A stretch of 64,000 nt of DNA from Aquisphaera giovannonii (GTDB lineage: Bacteria > Planctomycetota > Planctomycetia > Isosphaerales > Isosphaeraceae). The first letter of the stretch is position 1. Each line of letters begins with the position of its first letter. The notes under the pieces were generated by a model. That model did no database searches. It saw nothing but the letters and a program-made list of their open reading frames with translations, and had not been told where the DNA came from. This document shows, in pieces, positions 22,018 to 28,255 of this stretch. Location of the stretch: the NCBI RefSeq assembly GCF_008087625.1, contig NZ_CP042997.1, positions 2,542,001 to 2,606,000 on the forward strand. Reading direction: 5' to 3'. Made by a program: the position numbers and the translations under genes.

Positions 22018-24681
22018 TCAGGCCATGCGATATCCCAGCGTCCGCCTCCACGCGGCGGCGAGGGGGATGGCGAGGACGGCGAAGATGATCACGCTCATCG
22101 CGCCCTGGGAGCCGCCTTCCACGAAGCCGTAGCTGTGCAGGCCCACGCCAAGGACGAAGTTCACGCCGTACCAGGCCATGATCACCGAGAGGAAGCATAC
22201 GACCGACGCGCAGACCAGGCCGAAGGTATTGACCCAGCCGGCGAAGCGGCCGTGCAGCGGGACGAGGTAGACCAGCAGGGTGATCAGCGCCCAGACCTCC
22301 TTCGCGTCCCAGCCCCAGAACCGGCCCCAGGAGTAATCGGCCCAGACGCCGCCTAGGATCGTCCCGGCGGCGACGAGCAGGACGCCGACCTGCATGGCCC
22401 GGTACATCAGGTTGGAGATCGGCTTGATCGTCGCGGCCGTCTCCTGCATGGCCAGGCCGCGGGCGTCCAGCTTGCCCCAGGCCGTCTTCTCCGTGGCGAA
22501 GATCTGCGCGGCGGTCGGCCTCGCCAGGGTCGCCACGCCGCCACCGGCCGAGGCCATCGCGGAGGCGCGGGAACCCGCGTACGCCGGGCCGCGGGCCTCG
22601 TCCGCGAGCTCGCCGTGCAACTCGGCCGCCGCCGCGTCCCGGAGTGCATCGCGGAACACTCGACGGTTCAGGAACTCGCCCGCCATCGCCAGCAGGCCCG
22701 CGAGGGCGACCATCCCGCCGATCTCCGCCACGAAGGCGCAGATGTAATAGAAGATGTCGCTCGCGCCCCAGTTGGAACCGGTGCTCATGGAGGCCGCCGC
22801 GACGCCGAGGATGCCCGCGGCGAGCAGGCCGATGCCCGGCACGAGCGGCATGGCCAGCTCGCGATAGGTCGGCGAACGCTTGTAGACGGCGGTGAGGTAA
22901 TATGTGGTGGCGATCAGCCCGAGCATCCACGCCAGTCCGAACGCCGCGTAGCTGGAGACGATCGTCAGGACGTGGATCGTCAGCCAGAAGTTGCTCCGCA
23001 GCACGGGCATCAGGCTGCCGATGCTCGGATCGAGGAGCGGCACGTTCACCGCCGTGAGCGTCCCCAGCAGCGCCACGGCCGACCCGCCCAGGGCGGCGAA
23101 GACCTTGCGGTAGATGCCTTCGAGGACCACGGACAGCACGGCGGACACGAGTGCCACCCAGATGACGGTCTCGTACATGTTCGTGACCGGGGCCCAGCCG
23201 GAGATCCGGATGCGGAGGTAGAAGCCGTAGATCTCCATGGCGATGCCGCCCACCAGGGCGGCCACGCCGGCCGCATACAACCCCTTGCCGACCTTCGACG
23301 CCGCGCCCGGGCGGAAGGCCCCGGAGACGATGGTCAGGATCAGCAGCACGAACGCCGCGCCGTAGCCGAAGGGGGCCAGCCAGAACGGGTTCATGGCGTT
23401 GAAGTGGGTCTCCCGCTCGATGGCGGCGACCGTCGCATAATGGCCGGCGGCGACCGCCTCTCCGAGCTTGCGCGAGGAGTCCAGCATCGCCGCGGCGAGC
23501 GGCTCGGCCAGGTGCCCGGGCTCACGGTCCTCCGCCTGGGTCATCTCCTTGTAGGCCGCGAGGAAGGCCCGCGTCTCCGCCTCCGGGTAGCCGGCTGCGA
23601 TCAGGTCCTCCGCGCCCGACTTCACGAAGGCCTTCAGCGGGACCCAGGCGGAATTCTCGCGGAGCCAGGCGCCGAACCGCTCGTCGAACTTCGGATCCTC
23701 GCCGGGGTCGCGACGCTGGTCGCGGGGGATGGCGTCCCAGTAAGTATCCAGCGCCTTGAGGACGTCGAACTCCAGCGGAGAGAGCGACCGCACGTCCTTC
23801 GACTCGCGGGCTTTCTTGATCACCCCGGCGAGGTAGCCCATCGCCTTCGCGGAGGAGGGCCGCGGCATGACGCGGATCATCGTCGCGGATCGCGTTTCGT
23901 CGCCGCTCACGGCCTTGTACGTCATGAGACGGCGGGCGACCTCAAGGGCCCTCCGCTCGGTCTCCGAAAGCTTGGCCGCGGACTTGGGGTTGGCGTCGTA
24001 ACGCTCCTTCTGCTCGTTCAGCTCGGAGGCCCACTGCATGAACGGCTCGGGATCGCCGTGGCCGGCGATCTTCGCGTCCTCGATCTCGCGGGGAGAGAGC
24101 CACTTGGCCTCCTCGCCGAGCCGGTGGGCGATCGCGGCGACGGCCTTCTTGCCGGCATCGTCGAGGCGGCCGGAGCGCACATAGTCGTTCACGGCCGCGG
24201 CCGTCAGCTCGGGGCCCGCGGCGAGCGCCTGGAGCGCCGGGCGTTCAGACTCGGGGGCCCTGGAGGCGATGTCCTTGAGCTGCTGCTTCAGCGCGCCGTC
24301 GAGGACCTTCTGGCGGAGCGGGCCGTAATCCACCAGGATGAACGGCTGATCGTCCCAGAATTCGGGGCGGACCATCCAGTCGAGGAAGGCGGCCACGGGG
24401 CCCCAGGAGGCGACCACTCGTCCCTCGGCGTCCCGGAGCTTGATCGACTCGCGGCCGAAGACCGCCTTGATCTCCTCGCGGGCGACGGTGTCCAGCGGCT
24501 TGATGCGGCCGGCGTGCATCACCGCGAGCTCGCCCACGCGGGCGTAGGCCGGGCCCCGGCCCAGGTCCTCGACCTTCGGTTCGGCCGCCCGGGCCGGTGT
24601 CGCGGTCGCGGCGGCGACCGCCAGGCCCGCGGCGACCCAGCGCCATGCGGACAGGGACAGGACCGCTCGTCTACCTTCCAT
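22018..24681 (-). CDS. ccsA: Cytochrome c biogenesis protein CcsA (ResC), large planctomycete-type form
   Basis: 887 residues, more than twice the usual CcsA. After a signal peptide, a periplasmic N-terminal region of about 420 residues starts with A-G-R-I-K-P-L-D-T, a motif also seen in long CcsA proteins of Bacteroidetes. The C-terminal half is the polytopic haem-handling domain with the Trp-rich signature W-G-R-F-W-G-W-D-A-K-E-V-W and conserved membrane histidines. A soluble insert of about 90 residues lies before that signature. CcsA with ResB exports haem and attaches it to CxxCH sites of apocytochromes outside the cytoplasmic membrane (system II). GGAGA precedes the start. Lies 99 bp downstream of resB. 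Confidence 0.9.
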   Translation of the reverse strand: MEGRRAVLSLSAWRWVAAGLAVAAATATPARAAEPKVEDLGRGPAYARVGELAVMHAGRIKPLDTVAREEIKAVFGRESIKLRDAEGRVVASWGPVAAFLDWMVRPEFWDDQPFILVDYGPLRQKVLDGALKQQLKDIASRAPESERPALQALAAGPELTAAAVNDYVRSGRLDDAGKKAVAAIAHRLGEEAKWLSPREIEDAKIAGHGDPEPFMQWASELNEQKERYDANPKSAAKLSETERRALEVARRLMTYKAVSGDETRSATMIRVMPRPSSAKAMGYLAGVIKKARESKDVRSLSPLEFDVLKALDTYWDAIPRDQRRDPGEDPKFDERFGAWLRENSAWVPLKAFVKSGAEDLIAAGYPEAETRAFLAAYKEMTQAEDREPGHLAEPLAAAMLDSSRKLGEAVAAGHYATVAAIERETHFNAMNPFWLAPFGYGAAFVLLILTIVSGAFRPGAASKVGKGLYAAGVAALVGGIAMEIYGFYLRIRISGWAPVTNMYETVIWVALVSAVLSVVLEGIYRKVFAALGGSAVALLGTLTAVNVPLLDPSIGSLMPVLRSNFWLTIHVLTIVSSYAAFGLAWMLGLIATTYYLTAVYKRSPTYRELAMPLVPGIGLLAAGILGVAAASMSTGSNWGASDIFYYICAFVAEIGGMVALAGLLAMAGEFLNRRVFRDALRDAAAAELHGELADEARGPAYAGSRASAMASAGGGVATLARPTAAQIFATEKTAWGKLDARGLAMQETAATIKPISNLMYRAMQVGVLLVAAGTILGGVWADYSWGRFWGWDAKEVWALITLLVYLVPLHGRFAGWVNTFGLVCASVVCFLSVIMAWYGVNFVLGVGLHSYGFVEGGSQGAMSVIIFAVLAIPLAAAWRRTLGYRMA

Positions 24682-24780: not shown

Positions 24781-26973
24781 TCAGAGCCGTTCCGGCTCGT
24801 CGCGGCCCGCCGCACCGTCTCCGGCCGGGCCTCGGAGCCTTCGCGTGGCCTGCTCCATCTTCCGCCGGGCCGTGTCGCTGAAGACGCCGGCCTTCATGGT
24901 GAACTGGAGGAAGATGCCGAGCACCAGCAGCAGGCAGCCGGCGTACTTGACGGGCCGGCCGGGGTCCACGCCCACGTGCAGCACGGACTGGTAGAGCCCG
25001 GTCTTCTGGCCGGTCTCGGGGTCGGACACCGGCGAGTATCGCATCTGATAGAACGTGAACCCCCGGTGCGACATGGGGTCGTTCATGGAGATCAGGTGCG
25101 GACGCTCCTTGATCCCCTGGCTGTCGTCGGTCAGCCTCACCTGGCTCTCGAACTTCGTCGCGTTCTCGGTGCCCGGCATGAAGCCGACATCGAACTTGTC
25201 CAGCTTTAGCTGGAAGCCCAGCGGCTGCCGGTCCACGTCGTAGGCGACCTGGTACGTCCGGTCGCCCAGCTGCACGGGCCGGAACGCGGGGGTGTCGGTC
25301 GAGTCGTCGCGGCGGACCCAGACCTCGCGGGAGGCGTCCCCGGTCGAGAGCTCCAGGAGCACGGCCGGGATGCCCTGGTCCATCTGCGCCTTGGGCAGGT
25401 AGAGGGGCTCGTAGACCTGGCGGGTGACGCCCGCGGGGAGGTAGTCGTCGACCCGAAAGTTGATGAACATGGGCATGTCCCCGCCGCCCAGGGCCGGGAT
25501 CGCCTTCCCGGTGGCCACCTGGCCAGAGGAGCGGAGCACCGTCTTGCCGTCCTTGCCCCGGCCGAAAACTCGGTACGAGAGCTTGCCGTCCGGGCCGGCG
25601 AGGACCTCGATCTGCCCCATCCGGCCCGACAGCTTCGGGTCCAGGTCGGGCACGACCATCAGATTGATGGAGGCCAGCGGCTGCGGCGGAGTCGCGGACG
25701 GATCGTCGGGGTTGGGGGCCACGTTCGGGATCATCGGCAGCGAGGCGAGCGCCCAGTGCTTGACGGCGGGGCCGTCCCCCTTGCGGATCTCGAAGATGCC
25801 CACCGGCACGGCGGCCTCGCCCAGGACCCGGAAGAGGCCGCCGTCGCTGGTCGGGAAGTCCGCGACCTTCTCGACCGTCACCGACAGGTCACTTTCCGGC
25901 AGCGTGATGGTCTTGCCTTCCTGGTCACGGAGGGGCAGGTCATGCACGCGGGTCTTGCCCGATTTGTCGGCGTAGCGGAACCGCGCCAGGCCGCGGGGGC
26001 CTGCGTCCATCGGCGGCTTCAGGAAGTCCTCGATGAGCTCGGGCCGATCCACGTACCCGAAGGCGATCAGGGCGGGTGCCTCGCGGCCGCCGATCTCGGA
26101 ACGGGCGACCCGGTGGAACCGCCGGTCCAGGGCGAACCACTGCTCGTCCTCCGACGCGAAGGCCTCGCGCGCCTGCGGCATCCCGGGGGCCTTGAACTCG
26201 AGCTGCATCCGCGCCATGGGCGTGCCCGACGGGTCGGCCTCGTGGACCGTGGACGGGGCGGCGGCGGGATAGAAGGTCTTGATCGCGACCCGCACCGGGT
26301 CGCCGGGCTGGCTCAGGACCTCGCCGGAGGACGAGGGGGTCGGGAGGCGGCCGTCGGTGAGGCCACTCAGGGTGAAATCGAGCAGGTTGTTCAGCCGGGC
26401 CTGCCCGTTGCCCCAGGCGAAGGGCCCCGGGGCGAAGTGGAAGTCCCGGGTCGCCCCCGGCTCGCCGGTCCTGGCATCGACCTCGCGGAGGCGGATCACC
26501 GAGTCCTGGAGCCGCAGGAGCTGGGACTTGGTCTCGCCCTCGAGCATGACGACCTCGCCCTCGTCGGCGGTCCGGAAGCTGATGTAGGAGCCGGCGATCA
26601 GGACCAGCAGGCCCAGGTGGGTGACCACGAAGCCGGTCTGCCGCCTCTTCCACGGGAACCGGATCGCCGCCGCGCAGAAGATGTTGATCGCGAGGAACCC
26701 GAGAAGGAGGGCGAACCAGGTGCTCCGGTAGACGAAGTCCTGGACCGTCGCCGTGCTGTAACGCGACTCCAGCCACGTGGCGAAGGCGAGCGAGGCGGCG
26801 AGCGAGCCCAGGCCGAGCACGGCGAGCTTCAGCGAGGCCAGGAACCGGTAGATCGCCATCAGGACGCCGACGAGGCCGCCCCGGGTCGCGGGCCGGCCGG
26901 GCGGCCGTTTCGACCCCGGGCCCCGCGCGGCCGACGAGTCGATCACCGAAGCCTTCTTCGCGGCGGTCGCCAT
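24781..26973 (-). CDS. resB: ResB-like cytochrome c biogenesis protein
   Basis: 730 residues. Three membrane helices lie in the first 150 residues (F-L-A-S-L-K-L-A-V-L-G-L-G-S; W-F-A-L-L-L-G-F-L-A-I-N-I-F; T-H-L-G-L-L-V-L-I-A-G-S). A large periplasmic domain and a last helix near residue 680 follow (Y-A-G-C-L-L-L-V-L-G-I-F). L-A-S-L-K-L-A-V and T-H-L-G-L-L-V are typical ResB/Ccs1 segments. ResB partners CcsA in system II cytochrome c synthesis, which fits the multiheme cytochrome at 59473-62628. The upstream gap of 186 bp separates it from the ECF-cytochrome fusion gene on the same strand. Confidence 0.9.
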   Translation of the reverse strand: MATAAKKASVIDSSAARGPGSKRPPGRPATRGGLVGVLMAIYRFLASLKLAVLGLGSLAASLAFATWLESRYSTATVQDFVYRSTWFALLLGFLAINIFCAAAIRFPWKRRQTGFVVTHLGLLVLIAGSYISFRTADEGEVVMLEGETKSQLLRLQDSVIRLREVDARTGEPGATRDFHFAPGPFAWGNGQARLNNLLDFTLSGLTDGRLPTPSSSGEVLSQPGDPVRVAIKTFYPAAAPSTVHEADPSGTPMARMQLEFKAPGMPQAREAFASEDEQWFALDRRFHRVARSEIGGREAPALIAFGYVDRPELIEDFLKPPMDAGPRGLARFRYADKSGKTRVHDLPLRDQEGKTITLPESDLSVTVEKVADFPTSDGGLFRVLGEAAVPVGIFEIRKGDGPAVKHWALASLPMIPNVAPNPDDPSATPPQPLASINLMVVPDLDPKLSGRMGQIEVLAGPDGKLSYRVFGRGKDGKTVLRSSGQVATGKAIPALGGGDMPMFINFRVDDYLPAGVTRQVYEPLYLPKAQMDQGIPAVLLELSTGDASREVWVRRDDSTDTPAFRPVQLGDRTYQVAYDVDRQPLGFQLKLDKFDVGFMPGTENATKFESQVRLTDDSQGIKERPHLISMNDPMSHRGFTFYQMRYSPVSDPETGQKTGLYQSVLHVGVDPGRPVKYAGCLLLVLGIFLQFTMKAGVFSDTARRKMEQATRRLRGPAGDGAAGRDEPERL

Positions 26974-27159: not shown

Positions 27160-28188
27160 TCAGCGCCGGAAGGCCATGTGGCAGGAGACGCAGGTGGACT
27201 CCAGCCGGCGTGCGGCCTCGACGGCCGACGCCCGATCTCCCGCGCGACCGGCCTCCGCCAGCGAGCGGGCCTCGGTGAACATGCCCGCGGCGAGCCCCCG
27301 CCAGAGCACCCGGCCCGGCGGCAGGCCGGGCGACTGAGCGGACGCGACCAGCGCGACCTCCTCCACATTACGTGCCAGCGTTTCGATCTGTTCGCCCGTC
27401 GGCGGCTCTCCGCGGACCCCGGCGACCCAGGCGGCGATCGCGGGCTCGCGACGGCCGATCCCGCGTATCCCGGCCAGGGAGTGCATCGCCGGGCGAAGCA
27501 GGGCGCGGCCCTCGGCCGCCGGCCCATCCGCCGGGCCGACCCTCCAGGCGATCCCCGCCGCGAGGAGCGAGGCCAGGACGCCCGAGTGGACGAGCCGCTT
27601 CCGGAGGAGGGCCCGGGCCCGCTCGAGCCGGCGGGACATCGACCCGGTCGGCCAGCCGAGCCGCCTCGCGGCCTCGTCGTTGGTCATCCCCTCCAGGTAG
27701 CAGAGGACGATCGGCTCGCGGTACTTGTCCGGGAGCTCGCCGAGAGCGTCGTCCAGGATCTTCCGCAGCTCGGCCCGCTCCAGGTGGTCCTCGGGGGCGG
27801 TCGACAGGGCGGCCTGGTCGGGCCGGGCATCGCCCCCGCCGGGGAGCGACGAGATCGTCCGCTCGCGGGCGTGCCGCCGGGAAAGGCCCCCGCGAGCGTG
27901 CATCGCCAGCCGCCGGGCGACGGCTGCCAGCCAGGGGCCCGCGGACCCCGTCCAGGAGACGCGACCCGCCTTCCGGGCCAGGGTGAGGAAGGTGGCCTGG
28001 AAGGCATCCTGGGCGTCATGCTCGCAAGGGAGCAGCCGCCGGCAGATCCGGAGGACGCGGGGCCCGTGGCGCTCGACCAGCTCGCGGAACGCCGCCTCCT
28101 CGCGGCGGCGGGCGAACCGTTCGAGCAGGCGGGCATCGCTGTCCGTTTCGGTGATCAAGTCCGCGCCCCCCGGGAGATCGGTCGTCAC
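27160..28188 (-). CDS. ECF sigma factor fused to a cytochrome c'-like haem-binding domain
   Basis: 342 residues. Residues 20-200 are a complete ECF sigma factor: region 2 (F-R-E-L-V-E-R-H-G-P-R-V through D-A-Q-D-A-F-Q-A-T-F-L) and region 4 (L-P-D-K-Y-R-E-P-I-V-L-C-Y-L-E-G, then D-E-A-A-R-R-L-G-W). A short hydrophobic stretch at 199-217 may cross the membrane. The last ~105 residues are helical and end in C333-V-S-C336-H337-M-A-F-R, the CxxCH-x2-[FY]-R ending of cytochrome c'. Haem attachment needs export of this end, which fits a membrane-spanning topology. The gene precedes resB and ccsA. The start is a GTG with a poor ribosome-binding site; a TTG at codon 11 is an alternative. The sigma assignment is firm, the haem domain likely. 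Confidence 0.85.
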   Translation of the reverse strand: MTTDLPGGADLITETDSDARLLERFARRREEAAFRELVERHGPRVLRICRRLLPCEHDAQDAFQATFLTLARKAGRVSWTGSAGPWLAAVARRLAMHARGGLSRRHARERTISSLPGGGDARPDQAALSTAPEDHLERAELRKILDDALGELPDKYREPIVLCYLEGMTNDEAARRLGWPTGSMSRRLERARALLRKRLVHSGVLASLLAAGIAWRVGPADGPAAEGRALLRPAMHSLAGIRGIGRREPAIAAWVAGVRGEPPTGEQIETLARNVEEVALVASAQSPGLPPGRVLWRGLAAGMFTEARSLAEAGRAGDRASAVEAARRLESTCVSCHMAFRR

Positions 28189-28255
28189 TCCGCAACCTAA
28201 TGTCCCGGGGCGGCCCCGGCGAATGCAAGAATCTCCGGGAAAAGGCGGCGGCGGT

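Follow-up and report, generated by a model that had tools for sequence, protein, structure and literature searches.

How does a bacterium gauge whether its cytochrome-making machinery is working? The locus examined here raises this question because an ECF sigma factor ending in a cytochrome-like tail is encoded next to the genes of a cytochrome c synthase. To our knowledge, little is understood about how bacteria adjust the capacity of cytochrome c synthase to demand, and the position of a sigma factor gene beside genes for a haem-attachment enzyme suggests such a check by the cell. The window, that is, the whole stretch of 64,000 nucleotides analyzed in this work, is part of a single contig in a genome of 10.5 Mb from the family Isosphaeraceae. 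Under our best reading, attachment of haem to the tail would report maturation capacity, and the sigma factor would adjust its own operon in response; in this reading, we infer the presence of haem, the topology of the tail and the direction of the signal.

Domain organization of the sigma factor

The open reading frame described in the sequence-only reading (positions 27160-28188, minus strand, GTG start, 342 amino acids) is present in the window. The alignment with the orthologues begins at a TTG codon located 10 codons inside this frame ("MITETDSD..." compared to "MIDHASDA" and "MVETPSDA"), and therefore, the likely gene spans 27160-28158 on the minus strand and encodes a protein of 332 amino acids. 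Residues 1-188 of the 332-aa form (27595-28158, minus strand) comprise the sigma2-linker-sigma4 core. The claim that this is a complete ECF core was borne out by Pfam matches to sigma region 2 (PF04542, 3.1e-13) and region 4_2 (PF08281, 9e-15), and TIGR02937 was matched with 101.8 bits against a cut-off of 42.9, so that the protein is an ECF sigma factor with both sigma2 and sigma4. Two cysteines, C39 in sigma2 and C153 in sigma4, are invariant across the 13 rows of alignment A1.

The core is followed by a hydrophobic, probably membrane-spanning segment, LVHSGVLASLLAAGIAW (27544-27594, minus strand), and then by a helical, c'-like domain that is predicted to reside outside the membrane (27163-27543, minus strand). 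Close to its end, this domain contains the putative haem-attachment motif CVSCH (27178-27192, minus strand; C323, C326 and H327 in the 332-aa form). Both the hydrophobic segment and the terminal sequence C-V-S-C-H-M-A-F-R-R agree with the earlier description of the protein.

Orthologues and conservation of the CxxCH motif

A search of 59 related genomes identified 13 full-length relatives, including that of the window, and CxxCH is present in the tails of all 13. In a profile search of 45 genomes of the family, 17 full-length members scored 385-494 bits, with the next match at 226 bits; the eighteenth family member comes from genome G064, where the sigma gene is interrupted by Ns. Class-wide, among the five best candidates in each of 397 genomes, a single full-length match outside the family was detected at E <= 1e-70, in genome G290, bringing the total to 19 orthologues, 18 in the family of the window and one in another family. 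Among at most 23 candidates per genome, no second out-of-family orthologue was found in the 95 genomes of the G290 family, and among the five best candidates per genome, 392 genomes of the phylum yielded none outside the window's family at E <= 1e-80; given the scoring of the best candidates only, members could be missed in these wider searches.

The sequence-only reading had tied its proposed haem site to retention of the motif wherever the extension occurs, and this is what we observed: CxxCH is found in all 19 orthologues, including that of G290, where the tail ends in CQHCHLAFRH, and the gap from 385 to 226 bits separates these proteins from other ECF sigma factors. By contrast, none of the 26 tails of ECF paralogues contains CxxCH (27 paralogues, 26 with any tail, 9,254 residues, with 7 of the 26 tails cut by the end of the fetched stretch), which rules out a chance occurrence of the motif. 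In 14 of the 19 orthologues, CxxCH is located at most 10 residues from the C-terminus; in the remaining five (L036, L037, L041, L105 and L106), the protein extends for about 98-109 residues beyond it.

In a tree built from the sigma core alone, 18 orthologues (G064 left out) are on one side of a branch (97/88) that separates them from 28 paralogues, and therefore, these sequences likely have a single origin. The sigma gene was detected in 18 of the 45 family genomes, compared with 43 of 45 for ResB, and is thus a dispensable accessory.

Similarity of the tail to cytochrome c'

The tail is less conserved than the core, with the mean pairwise identity of 0.30 compared to 0.59. Only five of its 144 positions are invariant among the 18 aligned orthologues (G064 left out), namely, L189 and G193 at the start of the tail and C323, C326 and H327 of the motif. 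A methionine in the first helix (VRxAM and similar) occurs in Aquisphaera, Singulisphaera and others, but several orthologues lack it, and there is variation after CxxCH as well (AFR, AFH, VLH, ASR, ACR, LFG).

In the window protein, residues 301-341 (41 residues, 342-aa numbering) match the Pfam cytochrome c' family PF01322 with an E-value of 8.7e-5 and 23.9 bits, below the curated cut-off of 26.5 bits. This cut-off is exceeded by the G290 orthologue (27.5 bits), and matches with E <= 0.05 were obtained for 9 of 13 orthologues. An AlphaFold2 model of the tail built from 11 sequences (m75c29f90543c; pLDDT 77.2, pTM 0.70) consists of a low-confidence first helix at the membrane segment followed by four long helices (26-41, 67-86, 94-118 and 121-143 in the numbering of the tail construct), with CxxCH (135-139) on the last one; the model of the full-length protein was poor (pTM 0.38). 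The structural resemblance to a four-helix haem bundle that had been anticipated from the sequence was thus recovered in the predicted tail, for which Foldseek placed cytochromes c' and cb562 at the top of the PDB matches (best E 0.023, none at or below 0.001; TM by query length about 0.5-0.6), bearing in mind that helical bundles match each other easily. VIA ranked the Kuenenia proteins Kusta0087/Kusta0088 first, among other helical bundles, with a Z of 12.0, a value within reach of bundles without kinship. A search with the tail sequence against solved structures retrieved mostly designed helical proteins and cytochrome b562 variants, with the best cytochrome c' at E 0.18, and was dropped as evidence. 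Because the window protein scores under the Pfam cut-off and the bundle matches are not decisive, we refer to the tail as c'-like rather than as a member of PF01322; taken together, the model and the profile matches suggest a c'-like four-helix domain.

The hydrophobic segment that precedes this domain was apparent in all 19 orthologues, with KD17 values from 1.66 to 2.63, whereas the paralogues range from -0.29 to 1.58, with a mean of 0.85 (14 scorable of the 26 given). By the Wimley-White octanol scale, the values run from -8.5 to +0.5 in orthologues and from -3.4 to +9.6 in paralogues and hence overlap, so that a membrane segment between the sigma core and the outer domain is predicted less clearly on this scale. 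With a short segment of 17 uncharged residues and KD17 of 1.69, the window protein falls among the weakest of the orthologues. It contains seven lysines and arginines in the 15 residues before the segment and two in the 15 residues after it; across 18 aligned rows, the corresponding numbers are 4-7 and 0-3. Because the positive residues are located before rather than after the segment, the tail side is predicted to lie outside the membrane.

Linkage to System II cytochrome c synthase genes

The genomic neighborhood of the sigma gene was not noticed in the sequence-only reading. Separated from the sigma gene by 186 nt, the window contains a gene for ResB of the CcsB/Ccs1 type (24781-26973, minus strand; PF05140, 9.7e-21), followed by a gene for CcsA with a tryptophan-rich (WWD) domain, WGWDAKEVWALI (22018-24681, minus strand; PF01578, 3.9e-24). 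By these Pfam matches, the two downstream genes encode both subunits of a System II cytochrome c synthase, ResB-CcsA (CcsBA).

The sigma-ResB-CcsA arrangement, in the same order and on the same strand, is found in the window and in 10 of the 12 fetched loci. In the loci added later (L059 and L105-L108), ResB is the next gene in all five and CcsA was seen in four, the contig of L106 ending before CcsA. Overall, ResB adjoins the sigma gene in 16 of the 18 family members, in 15 of which CcsA was seen as well. In G290, a lipoprotein-like ORF (L140:2153-3223) separates the sigma gene from an ORF that matches ResB in Pfam and, by eye, continues into a CcsA-like part, at which point the contig ends; with this case of an intervening ORF, the sigma gene is upstream of ResB in 17 of the 19 orthologues. 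The exceptions are both Singulisphaera genomes (L038/L039, from G027 and G010), where the sigma gene is located among unrelated, oxidoreductase-like genes. A scan starting from ResB covered 29 loci in named genomes; the flanks of 11 of these encode an ECF core, in each case with CxxCH. These 11 loci come from genomes already counted and hence are not independent, and some of the flanks are short. The closest named relative in the scan was Aquisphaera insulae, with 84% identity in ResB.

Many of these loci also retain genes for a TIM-barrel protein and GatB close to the sigma gene, and therefore, part of the ResB-CcsA linkage may reflect shared descent. The linkage is kept in L036 and L037, for which no upstream TIM-barrel and GatB genes were detected, and in L108, where the TIM-barrel gene is 5.4 kb away. 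In a further locus, from a genome of the same genus as the window (L055:1-860), the TIM-barrel gene is directly followed by ResB, with no sigma gene between them.

The window's genome encodes one ResB at E <= 1e-20 and one strong CcsA. A second, weaker PF01578 protein (G000:C1:345888-346559, locus L154) is encoded beside an ORF that by eye resembles glutamyl-tRNA reductase, and we take this protein to be HemX-like; a search of the same genome for CcmE gave no match. Therefore, the synthase linked to the sigma factor is probably the only cytochrome c synthase in this genome.

A promoter-like motif upstream of the sigma genes

Upstream of the sigma gene, on the minus strand, the window contains a promoter-like motif (28197-28232) that consists of GCATTC followed, about 20 nt on, by ACATTA, with the first base of GCAT 68 nt before the TTG codon. 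The motif GCAT-N19/20-CA[TA] precedes all 18 sigma genes of the family, with GCAT 65-89 nt before the start, and is itself mostly preceded by A-rich sequence. These 18 sites were picked by eye and define the scoring matrix, such that the scores of 23.7-36.0 obtained for them are those of a training set. The G290 gene did not contribute to the matrix; it is preceded by TTGCATTC and GGCATAAT, equally spaced, with a score of 30.7, compared to a maximum of 19.4 in 540 shuffles.

We considered whether this motif could be a general planctomycete ECF promoter and rejected this possibility: 28 upstream stretches of paralogues (27 genes, one counted twice) scored 4.7 on average, with one at 19.1, compared to 23.7-36.0 for the orthologues. 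Four paralogues (L018, L031, L097 and L104) show a similar upstream layout with GTAT in place of GCAT, perhaps a related ECF promoter code.

When 11 loci of 15-19 kb were scored on both strands, the best site in each was the sigma promoter (all training members), and the next independent site scored 17.9. We also rejected the possibility that resB has a similar promoter of its own because the 16 sigma-resB gaps score at most 6.3; the gap in the window contains no terminator-like site on the minus strand. The presence of the motif before all 19 sigma genes and its absence from the 16 gaps suggest a single self-controlled operon, in which the sigma factor would drive its own gene, and resB and ccsA would follow by read-through. 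In Singulisphaera, the promoter-like motif is kept upstream of both sigma genes (L038, L039). The resB of this genus, now unlinked, has no good site (best score 15.0), which speaks against its control by the sigma factor there.

A wide regulon did not emerge from the search, either. A strict form of the pattern, which misses the site of the window itself, gave 42 matches over 17 genomes, compared to 4 for the backward control. Among the 30 of these 42 for which loci were scored, five reached 30.9-35.3, all of them sigma promoters, and the other 25 scored at most 26.5. Most of the 25 are located inside ORFs of more than 200 codons, but so are the five sigma promoters, and thus, position within an ORF does not separate the sigma promoters from the other matches. 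The excess of matches over the control may be due to coding sequence.

A possible role of the tail in cytochrome c maturation

The fusion, the conserved CxxCH, the linkage to ResB-CcsA and the common promoter-like motif can be combined in a model to which we assign middling confidence. The protein would be a membrane-tethered ECF sigma factor with an outer c'-like apocytochrome that serves as a built-in test substrate of the adjacent ResB-CcsA. The tail would cross the membrane, and ResB-CcsA would attach haem to its CxxCH; the haem-bearing tail would then fold as a c'-like bundle and keep the sigma factor inactive through retention at the membrane and protection from proteolysis. When the synthase, haem or reductant is in short supply, the tail would stay apo and unfolded and would be either cleaved, as is the case for IutY, or change shape, so that the sigma domain becomes active. 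The active sigma factor would transcribe from its own promoter and read through into resB-ccsA, and the synthase level would rise until the tail is matured again, a negative feedback on cytochrome c maturation. The sign may also be the opposite, with the holo tail being the active form. That the initiation factor is itself a cytochrome c, its activity set through haem attachment by the synthase of its own operon in a closed product-sensing loop, is a proposal we put forward tentatively. If this is true, the covalent attachment of haem would itself count as a regulatory signal, and the cell would have in the tail a natural reporter of synthase activity.

The sequence-only reading had proposed a one-component sensor, in which a domain outside the membrane binds NO, CO or O2, or reports the redox state. 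Prediction and conservation support the joining of a sigma factor of the ECF type to a membrane segment and an outer c'-like haem-attachment domain. The proposed signal found no such support, given that the residues of the ligand pocket are little conserved and the gene is tied to those of a cytochrome c synthase, which suggests that what is sensed is the attachment of haem. Ligand sensing by a haem c' domain that controls the sigma factor would be in line with the cytochrome c' fold matches of the tail and with the known gas binding by cytochromes c', and the first-helix methionine of Aquisphaera, Singulisphaera and others could ligate or cover the haem. However, neither this methionine nor the residues following CxxCH are kept across the orthologues, and the linked genes make cytochromes instead of using or removing a gas. 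We consider a ligand sensor unlikely, and the same applies to its extension whereby the sigma factor would set the synthase level to respiratory demand, which is less likely than the tail being a test substrate. Because the outer part of the tail retains just C, C and H, selection appears to maintain it as a substrate of the synthase rather more than for ligand binding.

CxxC motifs commonly have redox or metal-binding functions, and hence C-x-x-C-H might alternatively be a disulfide or a Zn/Cu site that reports periplasmic oxidation independently of haem; the synthase, too, depends on periplasmic oxidation because it needs reduced CxxC. There is a parallel in the ECF sigma factor CorE, for which PMC8999054 describes a C-terminal extension responsive to the redox state of copper. 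Such a thiol or metal switch nevertheless seems improbable to us: the histidine is invariant along with the cysteines, the motif is located in the final helix, as it is in cytochrome c', the out-of-family orthologue scores above the threshold of PF01322, and the synthase would be expected to encounter any CxxCH that is exposed outside the membrane. The poor conservation of the tail and the retention of TIM-barrel and GatB genes near the sigma gene would also be compatible with a c-type domain or membrane anchor that senses nothing, the linkage to ResB-CcsA being synteny by descent. We rate this explanation the least probable because the linkage holds without TIM-barrel and GatB genes, with the TIM-barrel gene at a distance and in another family, and because CxxCH was kept while the rest of the tail changed.

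Relationship to known sigma factors and cytochromes

ECF sigma factors with C-terminal extensions are known; what sets the present one apart is a c'-like CxxCH tail tied to System II genes. According to PMC8999054, the planctomycete group ECF57 has C-terminal extensions, some of them WD40-like, and one conserved cysteine each in sigma2 and sigma4, which may link the two domains. The window protein resembles this group in its long extension and in C39 and C153, a feature that is not specific to ECF57 because similar cysteine motifs occur in many planctomycete ECF paralogues, and differs from it in that the extension is a membrane segment with a c'-like CxxCH domain instead of a WD40-like one. 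Membrane-tethered sigma factors covered in the same source include IutY (ECF243), SCO4117 (ECF52), ECF48 and ECF53, among which IutY, a membrane sigma/anti-sigma fusion that becomes active upon proteolysis, sets a precedent for the release of the sigma domain (PMC8999054). As in these proteins, the sigma factor studied here continues at its C-terminus into a membrane segment and further regulatory or outer parts. As described there, the known ones carry anti-sigma/zinc-finger or carbohydrate-binding parts, whereas the outer part in the window protein is c'-like; no anti-sigma domain was matched by Pfam in the window protein or its orthologues.

Our literature search found no CxxCH-bearing sigma factor associated with a System II synthase and no c-type haem domain on any sigma factor, although for both, an earlier mention in the ECF classification or in planctomycete surveys is possible; the main text of the ECF reviews searched does not contain the words heme or cytochrome.

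With cytochrome c' (PF01322), cb562 and Kusta0087/Kusta0088, the tail shares four helices with CxxCH on the last one, as predicted here. Unlike these proteins, it is fused to a sigma factor, scores below the Pfam cut-off, and does not conserve the ligand-pocket residues. Elsewhere in the window's genome, three other proteins match PF01322 above the cut-off (L001, L002 and L003).
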